Shown: one piece after another, positions 2,459 through 63,150 of the stretch | How positions within the stretch are numbered: the first letter of the stretch is position 1 | Layout of the letters: the number at the start of each line of letters is the position of its first letter | NCBI RefSeq assembly: GCF_009905435.1 | Contig: NZ_JAAAMT010000001.1 | Coordinates: forward strand, 1-64,000 | Length of the DNA stretch: 64,000 nucleotides | DNA from: Pseudomonas sp. R5(2019) | Lineage (GTDB): Bacteria; Pseudomonadota; Gammaproteobacteria; Pseudomonadales; Pseudomonadaceae | Direction of reading: 5' to 3' | Notes under the pieces: generated by a model | What the model was told of the DNA's origin: nothing | What the model saw: the letters and a program-made list of their open reading frames with translations, nothing else | The model's database searches: none | Translations under genes and position numbers: made by a program

Positions 2459-3742
2459 TCAGAGAATCGACCAGGGGTAGATGATGATTAGGCGATCATC
2501 GCCAAAGTCCTGGCCACCATCGAAGTCGCGGCGGACCGTAGTGCTACGCCATTTCAGGGTCAGGTCTTTCAGGCTGCCGCTTTGTATCGTATAGGCCAGC
2601 TCCGATTCGCGTATCCATTCCTCGCCGTTGCTGTCGCTCGGCGACACGTCGATGTCCCAGCCACGGATATAGCGGTTCATGACGGTCAGGCCGGGGATTC
2701 CCAGGCCGGCCATGTCGTAGTCGTGGCGCAACTGCCAGGAGCGCTCGCCGATCGCGTCGGCAGTGAAACTATAGCCATCGTTGGCCACGGTGGCGCCGCT
2801 GGCACCATTGACGCGCATCCACTTGCTGTTGCCGCGGACCTTCATCAGCCCCAGGTAGAGGGTGTTGTTGCCATGCCTGGCCGAGAACATGCCGGTGTAG
2901 GTTTCGTTGCTCAGCTCGCCGTCGAGCTTTTTGCCGTTGTCGCTGCCGTTGAAGTAGCCGACGTTGGCGCCCAGCACCCAGTCGCCGACGGGTTGGCTGT
3001 GCACCAACTGGTAGTAGCGCTGGTCGTAGATGTCTTCCAGTTCGGCGAACCAGGCACCGAGCATAGTCTGGCGCTCGTTGAAGCTGTATTCGGCTCCCGC
3101 GACGTTGAATCGGTCGGAGGCGCCCGCGCCGAGGAAGCGAAAGTCCTCCAGACTGCCGTCCTCGCGGGGACTGTTCTGGCGTAACTGGCCGACGTAGAGG
3201 GTGGCGCTCTCGATATCCCTTGAGGTGAGCAGGCCGCCCTGGAAGGTCTGCGGCAGCGAGCGACCATCGTCCGAGCGCAGCACGGGCAATACGGTGGCCC
3301 ACTCGCCCACTTTCACTTCGGTTTCGGCAAGACGCATTTTCCCCGCCAGGCCCAAGCGTCCCCAGTCGTCCGGCGGGTAGCCGTCGTCGTGAATCGGGGT
3401 CATCTGGGTATTGCGCGACCACTTGTCGCCATCGAGCTTGAGGGACAACAACCCCAGTGCATCGACCCCGAAGCCAAGGGCGCCTTCGGTATAGCCGGAG
3501 CGGGCGTCGAGGATCAGGTTCTGGCTCCAGTGCCGCGCATAGCCTTGCCGCCGACCATCGATGAGCGGGCCCTGATCGTCCACGTAATTACGATTGAAGT
3601 AGTAATTGCGCAGGGTGAGACCGACCTTGGCGTCCTCGACAAAGTCGGCGCTGGCGCAAAGGGGCAGGCCCGCAATGCTCGCCAGGATCAGGGCGGCAGG
3701 AGTCCAGGGGTGCCAGGGCGACACCTTCGTTGGGAGGCGCAT
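2459..3742 (-). CDS. OprD-family outer-membrane porin
   Basis: 427 residues starting at MRLPTKVSPW; a longer frame exists upstream but has no signal-peptide logic. A signal peptide (APAALILASIAGLPLCASA region) is followed by FVEDAKVGLTLRNYYFNRNY, the usual first strand of Pseudomonas OprD/Occ channels, and alternating beta strands to the C-terminal IIYPWSIL. These 18-strand porins take up specific small organic acids, amino acids or sugars. It is divergent from the membrane-bound dehydrogenase genes, so its substrate may be that enzyme's substrate or product; this is inference. No basis for a D or K subfamily call. Confidence 0.88.
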   Translation of the reverse strand: MRLPTKVSPWHPWTPAALILASIAGLPLCASADFVEDAKVGLTLRNYYFNRNYVDDQGPLIDGRRQGYARHWSQNLILDARSGYTEGALGFGVDALGLLSLKLDGDKWSRNTQMTPIHDDGYPPDDWGRLGLAGKMRLAETEVKVGEWATVLPVLRSDDGRSLPQTFQGGLLTSRDIESATLYVGQLRQNSPREDGSLEDFRFLGAGASDRFNVAGAEYSFNERQTMLGAWFAELEDIYDQRYYQLVHSQPVGDWVLGANVGYFNGSDNGKKLDGELSNETYTGMFSARHGNNTLYLGLMKVRGNSKWMRVNGASGATVANDGYSFTADAIGERSWQLRHDYDMAGLGIPGLTVMNRYIRGWDIDVSPSDSNGEEWIRESELAYTIQSGSLKDLTLKWRSTTVRRDFDGGQDFGDDRLIIIYPWSIL

Positions 3743-4175
3743 CGGTCTGATTCTCCAAAACAATTGCCAGGCAACGCTTGACTTATCGCCTTGCCGATGC
3801 GCGACCCCCCCGGGGGCGTTCGTCGGCGACGGCCCCAATCAGACTAGCCCAGATTTCTCGCCAGTCAGCGCGACAGGGGCGGGAGCGAGACTCCGGCTTT
3901 GCGGTTTGCGGGGGAGGTTCCCGCGCGGGAGCGTGGCTGCTTGCGCCCAGCGCAGTCGTCTACCTGGCCAGTGGCATCGCCTGGGTGGTCGGCGTGGCCT
4001 TCGCGCTGCAGTGGCGGGCGGGCTGAGGTCAGAGGGTACCCCGCCCCAGAAATAGTCACGGGTTGCGTGAGCGTGGCTATCCTTGAGTCAAGGTGCGTAT
4101 TGCGAGCTGCATCAATGGATCGCGCCGCTCAGCCTGGATCTTGAGCCAAGTCTTTGAGCTTACTGGGGATCACCC
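3743..4175. other. Intergenic region between porin and dehydrogenase operon
   Basis: 433 bases with no convincing gene. It must hold the divergent promoters of the porin and the dehydrogenase operon, but no clear sigma-70 pair was recognised. A plus-strand frame ending at 4026 has a hydrophobic tail (VVYLASGIAWVVGVAFAL) that could be the remnant of a membrane-protein gene. Confidence 0.4.
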
Positions 4176-57919: not shown

Positions 57920-60900
57920 ATGAGCGAAGGATACGTAAACATTGTGCATGGAAGCAGCTCAAGCTCGGGCAGCGGCGGCTTTTTTGGAAATGCGTTCACC
58001 CGCCCCGGGCGCTCAAGCCGCAAGCGCCGGATGAGGCGACTGCGTGCTCGCGAACAGGCACGTCAGCAACAGGCCATTGCGGCGCAACAGCAGATCATCA
58101 GGGCGCGAATTCAATCGTTCGAGGCAGCTCGGCAACGGTTGGATCAACGTCACGCCGCCGATCTTGCCGACAGCGCGAATCGATTGCAGGCAGAACTGGA
58201 TGCTCTGCGTCCTCCGGAGCATGTACTCAGCGATGTGCCCGGCGTCTATTCGATCCTTCGGGAAAAGAATGTTGTCGACCAACTGATCGCGCAGAAGCAA
58301 CAAGCACTGCAAGCGGTCCTCCCCACAGCCCATTCCTTTTACCCAGGCGATCCGCAGGGCAAGTCCACCGAGCAATACCTGGCAGCCTACAACGCGTTGT
58401 CCGCTGCCGGGGTCGACGCCTTTCAACGTTGGCATGACGCCTATGTCGCGAGTCAGGCGGCGCAGCAGCTCAATGAGGCGTTGCAGTCGCTGATTGCTCG
58501 CTCCGATGCACTGGCGGCCAGACAGGCGCACAAGCAAGCAGATTGGCAGCGCATGGCCGAGCGCGGAAGGGCGTTCGCTGAAGCCGAAACGCTACGGCAA
58601 GCGGATATCAAGCGGCTGCACTCAAGTGAGGAGGCCCGTCACCAGCGTCAGGTAATGACGGCTCATACGGCCAGCGTTCCGATCGCCGTTGCCGCTGCAA
58701 GGCCAGTGTTGTTGGCCGGAGCTTCTGCCTTGGGCATAGAGGCTGGCGTGCGAGCGCTGGAGGCAACGCTGCGCCAGGCGGTTGCGGAGCTTGCCAGGGT
58801 GGCGGCGATACCCGTCGGGCAGTCAGTCGGATCGTTTGTCACCTTGATGCTGTATTCCCCGCCGCTGGCTGACGGTGAGTTATCCGCCGAGCTGAGCGGG
58901 GGACGGTTTCAGGCATTGGTCACCCCACTGGATGTGCTTGCACCGATCTCATCAAGCGAGCTGAGAAAGGCGGCCGAAGGGGGCACCACGGTTGAGCTGC
59001 CTTACCGTATCAAGACCGAGACGGCCAACGATGCGACCAAGGTCCATCTGGTCAAGACCGATGGGCTTGCAGTGCCTTCGGACGTACCGGTCAACGCCGC
59101 TGTGCATGACCCGTTGCGCGATGTCTATGTGGTTCAAGGCAGTGGCATGCCGCCGACCACTCTTGAGTTTGGTCCCGCTTCGGTTTCACCCCTCGAGCCT
59201 GGCGTAACCTCCGGCCTGGCGAGCACGTCCACGGGCACCCTGGTAGAGGCAATTCCAACAGGTGCCGACACCCAATGCAGCGACTGCATCGTGGTTTTTC
59301 CACCGAGCGCTGGCCTTGAGCCGCTCTACATCGGTTTCAAGAGCAACGAAGCCGGCCCCGGCGTGGTCAGCGGCCTGGGGCAATCGCTGGACACCACGCT
59401 TCAGCGCCAGCTGACCGCGCACGGCAGTGCGGCCATCGCGTCACCGATGGCTGATCAGCTGCGCTGGCGCAGCTTCGACTCCGTTGAAGCCCTCAGGTCG
59501 ACGGTGTGGCAACAGCTGGCCAGAGAGCCCGCGCTGCTGGGGCCCTTCGAGACATTGAATATCCGGCGCATGCAGCAAGGCTTCGCACCATACGCTCCGC
59601 GCGTGCAGTGGCAGGCTGGCCAGCAGACGTTTGAGCTGACTTACACGCAGACCGGAATGCCTGCCGGGGCAGACTACAACCTCGACCATATGCGGATCAC
59701 CGGACCACAGGTCAGCGACGGCAGGCCGCTGGTGACACGTCCGGCTCTGCCTTGGTCCGAAGCCAGCAGTGCGGCATCGCAAGCGCTCACAGCAGCGCTT
59801 GAGCAACAAAGAGTCCTTGAACAACAGCGTCGTCAAGACCAGCTAGAGCGAGAAGCCCAAGAGGCGCGCCGCCGAGAAGCCCAGCGTGCGGCGAACACCT
59901 ACTATTTGCCGCCCCGGTTCGCCGAGTCAGCAACGTTTTTTACCAGCCCGTCCGGCGTCATCCAGGACTACGGGAATACCCTCCAAAGCGCACTTGGCCT
60001 GGCCATTAGCGACCTTGCTACAGAGGCCACTGCCAACACCGGTGAGGTGTTTGCCAGCCTGACGTTCCCTTCGCCAGCAGACGCCGAGTTCGCCTTTGCG
60101 GTCGCCTTGCCAGTACTTGCGCCTCATATCGACCTGACGGCCGTGCCGCCTTCGACGTTCGATCTTCCCTACCGCATCGGTGTGCTGAGCGAAGGCGCCG
60201 AGGTGGCCGTGTTCGCTGTCAGCACTCAGAGCCTTGAACTGGGCGCAGGCGTGCGGGTCAAGCCTCTTCAATTCGATGTCGCCAGCAACAGTTACAGCGG
60301 GCAGACCGACGGCCTGCCAACCAGAACGCTGACCACCACGCCGTTTCGGGCACCGGGTGCCGAATTGATCGGATCGACCCATCTGCCCGCTGCGCCGTCG
60401 TTGATAGTGGCTTACACCGGCAGCACTGCCGGACCGATCGCACCGGAGGTTGAGACCTACCCGGCTGCCGAAGGCGACATCGACGATTACATTTACTGGT
60501 TTCCGAAAGAGTCCGGGCTTGCACCGCTCTACGTTGTGTTCAAGAACCGGGAGGGGCCCAGGTATGAGCCGGGTGTGGTGACTGGCTTGGGGCAGGCGGT
60601 AGAGGGACTTTGGCTGGGCGCGGCGGTGCGGGGCCGGGGGCACCGATTCCAGTGCAGGTGGCGGATGCGTTGCGTGGGCGGGAGTTCAGGGATTTTGATT
60701 CGTTCAGATCGGCATTTTGGCAAGCAGTGGGCGCCAACCCGGAGTTGTCAGCTCAATTTAGTCGGAACAATTTGGAGCGGGTTCTCAGGGGGAAAGCTCC
60801 CTATGTGCTGCCCGGAGATCATTCAGGAAAAAGGAAGGTGTTTGAAATTCATCATGTACTGCCGATCAGTAATGGAGGAGCGGTCTATGACGTCGATAAT

Positions 60901-60966
60901 CTGCGGGTGTTAACGCCTGTGAAACATATTGAATTGCATTCGGCCAAATCTGGAGAGAAATCATGA
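57920..60966 (+). pseudogene. S-type pyocin with two nuclease modules, interrupted by a frameshift
   Basis: The chain starts at ATG 57920 (AAGGAG upstream) and would be about 1015 residues if one G were restored in the run at 60636-60640; as it stands the frame ends at 60913. Layout: Gly/Ser and Arg-rich N-terminus (1-45), long helical region (45-250), pyocin-S domain 1 (about 283-490), colicin-type DNase 1 (about 503-597), linker with coiled coil (610-660), pyocin-S domain 2 (about 688-890), DNase 2 (about 907-1015). DNase 2 keeps the HNH motif (FEIHHVLPISNGG, DVDNLRVLTP, HIELH). DNase 1 has lost the His pair and the terminal His (FELTYTQTG..., LDHMRITGPQ). The overlapping immunity gene and the domain order identify it as an S-type bacteriocin. 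No PrtN P-box or LexA box was seen upstream. No TonB or Tol box was identified. Confidence 0.85.
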
Positions 60967-61223
60967 AGCTAAGAAGCACACTTGAAGAATATACAGAAGC
61001 TGAGTTTGAAGAATTGGTGAGCATTGTGTTTTACGACAGGTTGGATTCTGACGAAGAGTTGAGCGACCTTATCGATGAAATTGATCGTCTGACGGAGCAT
61101 CCACGCAAGTATGGAATTATTTGTTACCCGGAACCCGATGCTGAAGATTCCCCAAAAGGTGTCATCAACACCATCAAAACCTGGCGAGCCGCGAACGGTA
61201 AACCAGGCTTCAAACCCGTATAA
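60963..61223 (+). CDS. Colicin/pyocin DNase immunity protein (Im family)
   Basis: 86 residues. MKLRSTLEEYTEAEFEELVSIVFYDRLDSDEELSDLIDEIDRLTEHP, CYPEPDAEDSPKGVINTIKTWRAANGKPGFKPV is a classical four-helix Im protein (E9/E7 type), with the YP of helix III. It binds and blocks the HNH DNase of the preceding bacteriocin. ATG overlaps the pyocin stop (ATGA), so it would be co-translated if the frameshift is absent or corrected. AT-rich relative to the bacteriocin, as is common for immunity genes. Confidence 0.93.
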   Translation: MKLRSTLEEYTEAEFEELVSIVFYDRLDSDEELSDLIDEIDRLTEHPRKYGIICYPEPDAEDSPKGVINTIKTWRAANGKPGFKPV

Positions 61224-61308: not shown

Positions 61309-63150
61309 ATGGAACTCAAACCCAACTTGCAAGCCTACACCGAGACCCAATTCCTGACCTTGCTCAACACGCTTTGGGAAGCGGATATGTCGGAGGCTGA
61401 ACACAATCGTCTTGTCCAGCACTTCGATGAGATATGCGAGCACCCACTCGGTGCCGATTTGCTGTTTTATTCGGCCGATTACGGCCATTGGGCAAACCCC
61501 GAGGGTATCGTTGCCACAATCAAGGCATCTCTGGCCTACAGGACGAGACCAGGCTTTGCTGATGATCCTTCGGCGCCTGCAAAGCCGGCTCAAGCCAGCG
61601 GACCGTTGGACCCCGCTTTCGACGCGGCCACTCAAGCGGCTGCCGAACGCCAGGCGATACGTATCGCCAATGCTGCCAGCCGCTCGACGCGCTTCCCGGA
61701 CCTGCTGGCGCTGGCCAATCAACTGGATCAAGCTGAGCAAACCGCGGAGCAGGCGTTGAGCCAATGGGACAATGCCATCCGCGACATCGAGCGCTCGCTT
61801 GCCGCTCCACAACCTGAACAGACGCCAACGCAGCGCATGAATCAATTGGAGGCGGACCGAGCGACGCTGGAGCTTCTGGGCTCCTCAGCGCGCAAGGCTG
61901 TCTGGAATATTCGCGGCATCCGCATGAGAGTGGAGTTTGCGCAAGGCTCTGCCGAAAGTGCCTTCAGGTTCCAATCCAGAGGCAAGACACTTGAAGAGTT
62001 ACAGTCCGCGCTGCAGTTCATCACTCAAATAGCGGAGCAACATGCTGCCTCTTGGCCGGCTGTCGAGGCCTATCACGTGCAGCTCAAAACAAGGGGGGAG
62101 GCATTGCTTGAGCTGTTCGATGAGCGCCGCATTCGCTTGCAGGCTGCCAGTGGGCAGCAACCGTGGAATTCTCCGAGCCACTTATCCATAGCAGCGAAGT
62201 CCGCAAGCCAGGGGCCTCGAATACTGACCCCGGCGCTGGGTGCGATGAATGCGTTTACCGAGTTGCTGATACCGTTGCAGCAGTCGCTGTTATCCGCGGT
62301 TGCCTATATCAATCGCTTGACGGAAAACGGGCAGTCCAGCGTCGGGTTGTCTGCCGACATACTGCGATTTTCCACGCGCCTGGGTCATGATGAGCGCTTC
62401 GCGCTAAGCCTGCCACTCACCGCGCTCGGCCCACTGCCTGAAGCAAACTGGCAGGAACTGGCCAGGCAAGAAAGCGACCTCCAGCTCGCATTACGACTGG
62501 GTAGCGGGCCGGTTATACAGGACGGAAGGACGTTTCAGCGCGTCTTTGTCGTGTCCGCGGACGGGCCTGCAATGCCGCGACGGATAAGGGTCAGGTCGGC
62601 GAGCTTCGACAGCAAGCGCCAGCTTTACAGTTTCACCACCCCAGGCGCAGGCCCGATCACTTTGAACTGGACTCTGCCTGACTCGGTCGACGTTGTGCCG
62701 GCTGCACCTTCCGCGACCCAGTACCCCGGCATCATGTCCGCTCCTCGCCAGCCGCTGTTCGAAGCTTTAGACCCAGCAACGGATCTGCTGATCGACGATT
62801 ACATCATCGTCTTCCCTGCGGCCTCTCGCCTGCCTCCCTTGTACGTGATGTTCAAGCCTTGCCTTGATTACCCGGGTGTGGCGAGCGGGCAGGGTGAACA
62901 CTTGCAGAGGCCGTTGCTTGATTTTGGCGGTGGAGCACCGATTCCAGCGTCGATTGCCGACCTGATGCGTGGCAGGGTGTTCAAGCATTTTGCAGCATTC
63001 AAGCGGGCACTCCTGCAGGCTATCGGGGAGGATCCGCAGGTGAGCGCAGAGGTCGAGGGTGTGCCAATGGGGATTTATCACAAGCTTGCCGTCGAGGCGG
63101 GCGGAGGGGTGTTTGACATGGATAATCTGGTGATCGCGCGGTCGCATTGA
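61309..63150 (+). CDS. Im-like immunity domain fused to pyocin-S/degenerate nuclease
   Basis: 613 residues. Residues 1-85 (MELKPNLQAYTETQFLTLLNTLWEADMSE..., HPLGADLLFYSADYGHWANPEGIVATIKASL) match Im-family immunity proteins along their whole length. A helical region follows (105-340), then a pyocin-S-like domain (about 345-530, ending RLPPLYVMFKPCLDYPGVASGQGE) and a nuclease remnant (about 540-613: GGGAPIPASIADLMRGRVFKHFAAFKRALLQAIGEDPQVSAEV, then IYHKLAVEAGGGVFDMDNLVIARSH). Compared with DNase 2 of the preceding gene the nuclease lacks about 20 residues including one of the paired His and the terminal His, so it is probably not active. The frame is intact. Confidence 0.85.
   Translation: MELKPNLQAYTETQFLTLLNTLWEADMSEAEHNRLVQHFDEICEHPLGADLLFYSADYGHWANPEGIVATIKASLAYRTRPGFADDPSAPAKPAQASGPLDPAFDAATQAAAERQAIRIANAASRSTRFPDLLALANQLDQAEQTAEQALSQWDNAIRDIERSLAAPQPEQTPTQRMNQLEADRATLELLGSSARKAVWNIRGIRMRVEFAQGSAESAFRFQSRGKTLEELQSALQFITQIAEQHAASWPAVEAYHVQLKTRGEALLELFDERRIRLQAASGQQPWNSPSHLSIAAKSASQGPRILTPALGAMNAFTELLIPLQQSLLSAVAYINRLTENGQSSVGLSADILRFSTRLGHDERFALSLPLTALGPLPEANWQELARQESDLQLALRLGSGPVIQDGRTFQRVFVVSADGPAMPRRIRVRSASFDSKRQLYSFTTPGAGPITLNWTLPDSVDVVPAAPSATQYPGIMSAPRQPLFEALDPATDLLIDDYIIVFPAASRLPPLYVMFKPCLDYPGVASGQGEHLQRPLLDFGGGAPIPASIADLMRGRVFKHFAAFKRALLQAIGEDPQVSAEVEGVPMGIYHKLAVEAGGGVFDMDNLVIARSH

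Follow-up and report, generated by a model that had tools for sequence, protein, structure and literature searches.

Gene C of Pseudomonas sp. R5(2019), found in the 64,000-nucleotide stretch of DNA that was analysed here as a whole (the window), joins an Im-type immunity domain to a helical arm, which is followed by a Pyocin_S translocation domain. It may be one of two subunits of a nuclease bacteriocin, the other being encoded by the large upstream gene A. As read from the sequences, this architecture, the linkage of C to A, the loss of the active site from a DNase domain inside A (DNase1), a reversed constraint on the two sides of the presumed interface and a DPY motif that most C proteins keep and most A proteins lack are evident. 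We propose that the Im domain of C, no longer the antidote of the killing nuclease, docks onto the dead DNase1. A would contribute a disordered receptor-binding N-terminus and an exchangeable C-terminal killing domain, neutralised by the product of gene B, and C would contribute its helical arm together with a Pyocin_S domain in which the canonical DPY motif, lost from A in most species, is retained. The two proteins would be released together, the N-terminus of A would bind the receptor and C would act in import. Clamping of A by the C Im domain through DNase1, be it for import or only for guarding A, is probable. The fuller proposal, a two-subunit nuclease bacteriocin in which the Im domain of C clamps DNase1 and C supplies the translocation domain, is one that we hold to be evenly balanced between right and wrong. 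The general type it would exemplify, a heteromeric bacteriocin with an Im-nuclease pair as assembly clamp, one chain that both binds the receptor and kills, the translocation domain in trans and cassettes swapped between, is put forward somewhat more tentatively. The features concerned, all on the forward strand, are these:

57920..60913 (alternative start 57809), + strand: gene A, large bacteriocin with a Gly/Ser-rich start and two Pyocin_S copies
59360..59710, + strand: DNase1 inside A, a dead nuclease and the proposed docking site for the C Im domain
60568..60966, + strand: DNase2, the C-terminal HNH DNase cassette of A, in another frame, open from 60568 (60568/60610)
60963..61223, + strand: gene B, small Im protein of 86 aa, presumably cognate to DNase2
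61309..63150, + strand: gene C, Im + helical arm + Pyocin_S + DNase remnant, 613 aa
61309..61563, + strand: Im-type immunity domain of C, residues 1-85
61612..62148, + strand: long helices of C, residues 102-280 (AlphaFold model)
62449..62850, + strand: Pyocin_S (inner membrane translocation) domain of C, residues 381-514 (Pfam)
62797..62844, + strand: canonical DPY motif D-x4-FP-x8-Y of C, residues 497-512 (definition from PMC5536347)
62875..63147, + strand: broken DNase remnant of C, without the exosite stretch and the terminal histidines

The first-pass annotation of this DNA had described C as an immunity domain fused to a bacteriocin-like chain with a broken nuclease, in an intact frame and just after a true immunity gene, and all of this is borne out. 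C is a single unbroken ORF with an ATG start, and it is directly preceded by gene B, a small Im by Pfam (E 5.2e-28). Pfam places Colicin_Pyocin (Im, PF01320) at residues 4-83 of C (E 7.5e-16) and Pyocin_S at residues 381-514 (E 5.9e-18), and residues 1-84 align with the solved Im9 (best E 3.1e-14). In an AlphaFold model of the window protein (pLDDT 84.7 and pTM 0.70 overall), residues 1-86 adopt the Im fold (Z up to 14.6, rmsd mostly 1.4-2.6 A), the match of highest Z being an Im7 chain (Z 14.6, rmsd 1.9 A). The beta-rich part of the model resembles the central domain of colicin D (Z 14.1, rmsd 4.5 A over 230 residues), and the structural matches of the helices were uninformative. Only part of the Col-Pyo_DNase profile is represented, the best stretch being residues 523-582 (profile positions 1-63 of 124, E 6.1e-15); this DNase-like remnant is also visible in the model. 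It lacks the stretch equivalent to the Im-binding exosite of colicin E9, and nothing in it aligns to the last two metal-site histidines. No histidine stands at the places of E9 H102, H127 or H131 in any of seven aligned C remnants, which thus fall short of an active nuclease.

Comparison with the two families from which C appears to be assembled makes its peculiarity clear. Residues 1-85 have the fold and the hot-spot residues of Im9, Im7, Im2 and ImAP41 (PF01320). Unlike these stand-alone proteins of about 85-95 residues, the Im domain of C heads a bacteriocin-like chain of some 400-570 residues (C measures 613 aa in the window and 459-656 aa across 50 A-C pairs), its specificity helix is conserved across species, and it does not adjoin a DNase needing to be silenced; the place directly after the cognate active DNase is occupied by gene B or another immunity gene. 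With the S-type nuclease pyocins AP41, S2 and S8 (PF06958 + PF21431), C shares the helices, Pyocin_S and DPY motif in the usual order. The entire layout of these pyocins is present in A. Unlike them, C has no working nuclease and, since its N-terminus is the Im domain, no disordered receptor-binding N-terminus, so that the functions appear to be split over two proteins. A short copy of C at locus L117 (7001-7999, 332 aa), in which Im is joined almost directly to Pyocin_S and the helical arm is missing, suggests that the arm may be dispensable.

The first-pass annotation was silent on gene A, the upstream bacteriocin with an internal dead DNase and an out-of-frame C-terminal one. A has the layout of a nuclease bacteriocin, with Pyocin_S, a C-terminal nuclease and an adjacent immunity gene, the window nuclease being out of frame: A leaves the frame of DNase2 at about 60600-60640, within a G/C-rich stretch, as a result of either a mutation or an assembly error. 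A model of A (from locus L083) was poor (AlphaFold, pLDDT 53.6, pTM 0.31) and was excluded from the fold searches. The gene looks like a member of the dual Pyocin_S group of Ghequire et al. and Sharp et al. 2017, in which tandem Pyocin_S domains and an extra DNase without functional HNH motif are followed by an HNH or non-HNH DNase (Ghequire et al.; PMC5536347). About 60-70 bases 5' of A, a conserved element (TATGTACCGC), possibly a promoter or operator, occurs in 32 of 50 loci. Control of the operon by the SOS response was considered and dropped: in the 50 regions upstream of A there was no LexA core matching at 8/8 positions and no clear P-box, only scattered matches to the latter (two in L066, at most one elsewhere).

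C was found in 40 of 398 Pseudomonas genomes (profile search, E<=1e-130) and the core of A in 39 of the 398 (E<=1e-98; three are truncated genes, in G155, G245 and G311), with thresholds chosen post hoc, after the result tables had been viewed, and with A-core and C profiles built partly from these same loci. All 39 A-core genomes carry C at the same locus, 38 of them at E<=1e-130 and G146 as a divergent copy (L126). Conversely, two of the 40 C genomes are without an A core at E<=1e-98: G112 has an A remnant, and in G215 C is truncated. Weaker C rows (G128, G130, G159, G192, G244) and weaker A rows were excluded from these counts. A protein search of the 398 genomes returned many full-length relatives of C, the majority of which stop just before the DNase; some copies of C are truncated. 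Both Im and Pyocin_S were present in 34 of 34 scanned C proteins (window included), and a DNase match in just five. The architecture thus recurs in other Pseudomonas, as the first-pass annotation had proposed to check. Outside this set, no C was detected at E<=1e-20 in the other 368 of 369 class-wide genomes, the window's own genome being the sole match, and 713 tblastn matches to plasmids included none with one place covering 80% of the query. A scan of genome contigs for two short patterns only gave 51 loci, not all of them with C, all Pseudomonas-titled except one Pantoea; this locus (L107, titled Pantoea sp. Ap-967) carries the operon, and its genus label looks wrong.

As these loci read, the middle of the operon is exchangeable, and A and C are its fixed ends. 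Of 34 loci with A that were inspected by eye, 17 have a small Im as the first immunity-like gene after A, and the other 17 have a DUF6392-like gene there (Pfam confirmed the DUF6392 assignment for all five proteins put to it). Where the end of A is intact, the type of immunity gene is in step with the HNH or different nuclease found there. C retains its Im domain in all 34 loci, those with DUF6392-like cassettes included, and since it is kept with both kinds of cassette alike, it is not expected to neutralise the toxin that A now carries. Several loci have orphan toxin-immunity cassettes in the interval from A to C. At L048, L050, L063 and L067 there are multiple cassettes or repeated DUF6392-like/Im immunity genes between A and C, and at L128 repeated cassettes or immunity genes precede a C fragment, a pattern seen in polymorphic toxin loci. 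Likewise, L126 (6261-11947) presents a cassette array between A and C, in which A is followed by a small Im, next by an orphan fragment of a DNase accompanied by a second Im, and finally by the divergent C with its DNase remnant.

DNase1 is the single constant DNase of the operon. It aligns gap-free to the E9 DNase (E 4.5e-21), and the equivalent of E9 H102 is missing from it in all 50 A-C pairs (Arg in 47), with H103 retained in only 12; these are the non-identical pairs among 66, with an A protein of less than 800 aa in three. Control pyocins, namely the 21 A-core search rows with E above 1e-79 minus the broken G367, have both histidines intact in 20 of 20 and a small Im nearby in every case, and no Im-bearing ORF of more than 150 aa was found around any of the 20 (7-10.5 kb fetched for each). 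At L146, a 102-aa ORF without Im part (3457-3765, - strand) resembles a portion of Pyocin_S and follows the small Im of a control pyocin.

In the alignments, constraint is reversed relative to ordinary DNase-immunity pairs on both sides of the presumed interface between the C Im domain and DNase1. The exosite was assigned to columns 72-98, which we take to be the limits of the E9 Im-binding exosite and which were adopted after the conserved block had been seen. Compared as contrasts within a domain, since overall levels are not comparable between vertically inherited and exchanged domains, the entropies of these columns are 0.86 bits against 1.36 and 1.30 in the flanks for DNase1 (50 rows), and 1.36 bits against 0.85 and 0.81 for DNase2 (23 rows). 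Ranked by this DNase1-DNase2 contrast, the segment starting at column 72 comes first among 90, and its value was matched in none of 20000 column permutations. When DNase1 is considered by itself, 8 of the 90 segments equal or exceed the exosite in conservation, so that the argument depends on the comparison with DNase2, a domain whose cassettes stem from many lineages. On the immunity side, helix II sets specificity in the Im family. Its entropy, again to be read against the rest of the same domain, is 1.04 bits in the C Im (50 rows) and 1.84 in the small Im proteins (45 rows), and that of the distal Im part is 1.81 and 0.88 bits, respectively.

The titles of PDB entries name the interface residues that have been mutated, N75, F86, K97 and R54 in E9 and D51, Y54, Y55, E41 and V34 in Im9. 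R54 of E9 is retained in just one of the 50 DNase1 domains, and the place of F86 is taken by Y, V, I or L. In helix III of the C Im domain, the hot spots are D51 in 50/50, Phe at the Y54 place in 49/50 and Y55 in 45/50; the window protein accordingly has Asp and Tyr at the D51 and Y55 equivalents and Phe instead of Y54. We had considered that Y54F in Im and F86Y in DNase1 might compensate for each other and dropped this idea, since Phe is usual at this place in the small Pseudomonas Im proteins as well (38/45).

The C Im domain and DNase1 also diverge together. Of nine segment pairs, they give the highest partial correlation of distances (r = 0.49, reached in 0 of 5000 permutations), although as mutually nearest constant segments on the chromosome their linkage could raise this value, despite DNase2 lying between them; it stays at 0.46-0.51 upon dropping any single locus, and the second-highest value, for the two Pyocin_S domains, is 0.27. 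In the 23 loci with an HNH cassette, the partial r was 0.75 for B-Im with DNase2 and 0.00 for C-Im with DNase2, and the 0.20 for C-Im with DNase1, being no higher than the 0.22 for B-Im with DNase1, is no support by itself. Judging by codon comparisons among the 45 closest of 135 pairs (dS 0.1-1.5), C is under purifying selection in its relatives. The first-pass annotation had argued for selection from the intact frame, with relaxed selection as the finding that would speak against it; median dN/dS is about 0.2 among these relatives, a set that leaves the window copy outside, and no relaxation is seen. By part, the medians are 0.22 for Im, 0.26 for the helical part, which also has the highest single value (0.72), and 0.20 for Pyocin_S; two parts of A have medians of 0.18 and 0.19, and DNase1, at 0.126, has the lowest median of the six segments.

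What C may contribute beyond binding is suggested by the DPY motif. Sharp et al. (PMC5536347) define it as D-x4-FP-x8-Y, find it in every nuclease bacteriocin that they examined, within the translocation domain, and report that colicin E9 no longer kills once the Tyr of the motif is changed. The Pyocin_S region of pyocin G is required for crossing of the inner membrane (Atanaskovic et al., PMC9040868). The strict motif occurs in 47 of 50 C proteins (the exceptions being two with FA and one truncated), in 3 of 50 A proteins and in 19 of 20 control pyocins. In 47 of the 50 A proteins, the first Pyocin_S copy has lost the Phe and three loop residues; Asp and Tyr remain, and with its shortened loop this copy may still work. 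In those A proteins that were inspected, both Asp and Tyr are gone from the copy that precedes the toxin. A of the window retains both DPY motifs, and those of L035 and L109 retain one each. Since the window motifs are intact, the division of labour belongs to the main family and not to the window copy, and window A looks like an early state that would have preceded it.

A different purpose for the same clamp can be imagined. C might guard or escort A, clamping it to keep it soluble or inactive in the producer and being shed before or at the target surface, with no role in import. All of the evidence on the Im-DNase1 interface fits such a function equally well. It leaves unexplained why the canonical DPY motif should reside in C rather than in A, and why the Pyocin_S domain of C should be under purifying selection, and we consider it rather unlikely.

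The suggestion of the first-pass annotation that C is a super-immunity or decoy protein, which would protect the cell by attaching either to DNase pyocins that arrive from outside or to the receptors of these pyocins, draws on the retention of the hot spots D51 and Y55, with which binding of an active DNase is possible. The ties of C to one operon speak against this, as does a specificity helix that is conserved instead of diversifying, and the sole constant DNase beside C is DNase1; protection of this kind is distinctly unlikely. Alternatively, C could be a relic, the fused antidote of a once-active DNase1 that has merely survived. Such a history would explain the origin of the system, a formerly active DNase1 with an Im gene after it, and the DNase remnant detectable in a minority of C proteins. 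A relic DNase1 should have decayed evenly, and instead columns 72-98 are better conserved than the remainder, after the loss of the active site; together with the low dN/dS of all parts of C and of DNase1 and with the presence of a neighbouring C at every A core found, this makes mere survival very improbable. That C is a recombination by-product or a domain store without a role of its own would fit the orphan cassettes and the truncated copies, and is the most improbable of all given one architecture, at one place in the operon, in 40/398 genomes and under purifying selection. From the interpretation in the first-pass annotation, the fusion, its selection and its recurrence therefore stand, and the by-product, decoy and store are less well supported: C is tied to one partner gene and not scattered, its specificity helix is conserved, and its DNase remnant is found in only 5/34 relatives.

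Returning to the two-subunit proposal, parts of it touch on published work. Gene A seems to be in print already, and the passages of PMC5536347 on the dual Pyocin_S bacteriocins mention neither a fused Im partner nor a reason why the extra DNase persists. An immunity domain is listed among those co-occurring with Pyocin_S in the Fig 1D legend of Atanaskovic et al. 2022 (PMC9040868), which gives the combination of Pyocin_S and Colicin_Pyocin without linkage, mechanism or partner. Polyimmunity proteins, as outlined by Zhang et al. 2012 (PMC3482391), resemble C in having immunity domains inside longer proteins; they carry several antidotes per chain, whereas C has one Im domain and a delivery chain. 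A reading as VPA1263-like effectors of type VI secretion was set aside, judging by the NF047924 match, which scored 58.9 bits for C and 140 for A against a cut-off of 900. In the portions of the literature covered by our search (including PMC9040868, PMC5536347, PMC3390384, PMC5909648 and PMC3482391) there was no account of an Im-Pyocin_S fusion, of which a prior mention is possible, nor did we find an earlier account of the A-C pairing, the operon with fixed ends or the clamp.

Colicin DNases and their immunity proteins are a textbook example of protein recognition that is both tight and specific. Should the two-subunit proposal be true, an antidote would have been reused as a structural part, a clamp between two delivery chains, and this would explain the extra DNase of such bacteriocins, dead yet kept. 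The system would also provide a sharp test of Pyocin_S function, i.e. whether this domain can work in trans. Finally, screens that pair such bacteriocins with the small immunity gene alone would miss half of the weapon.
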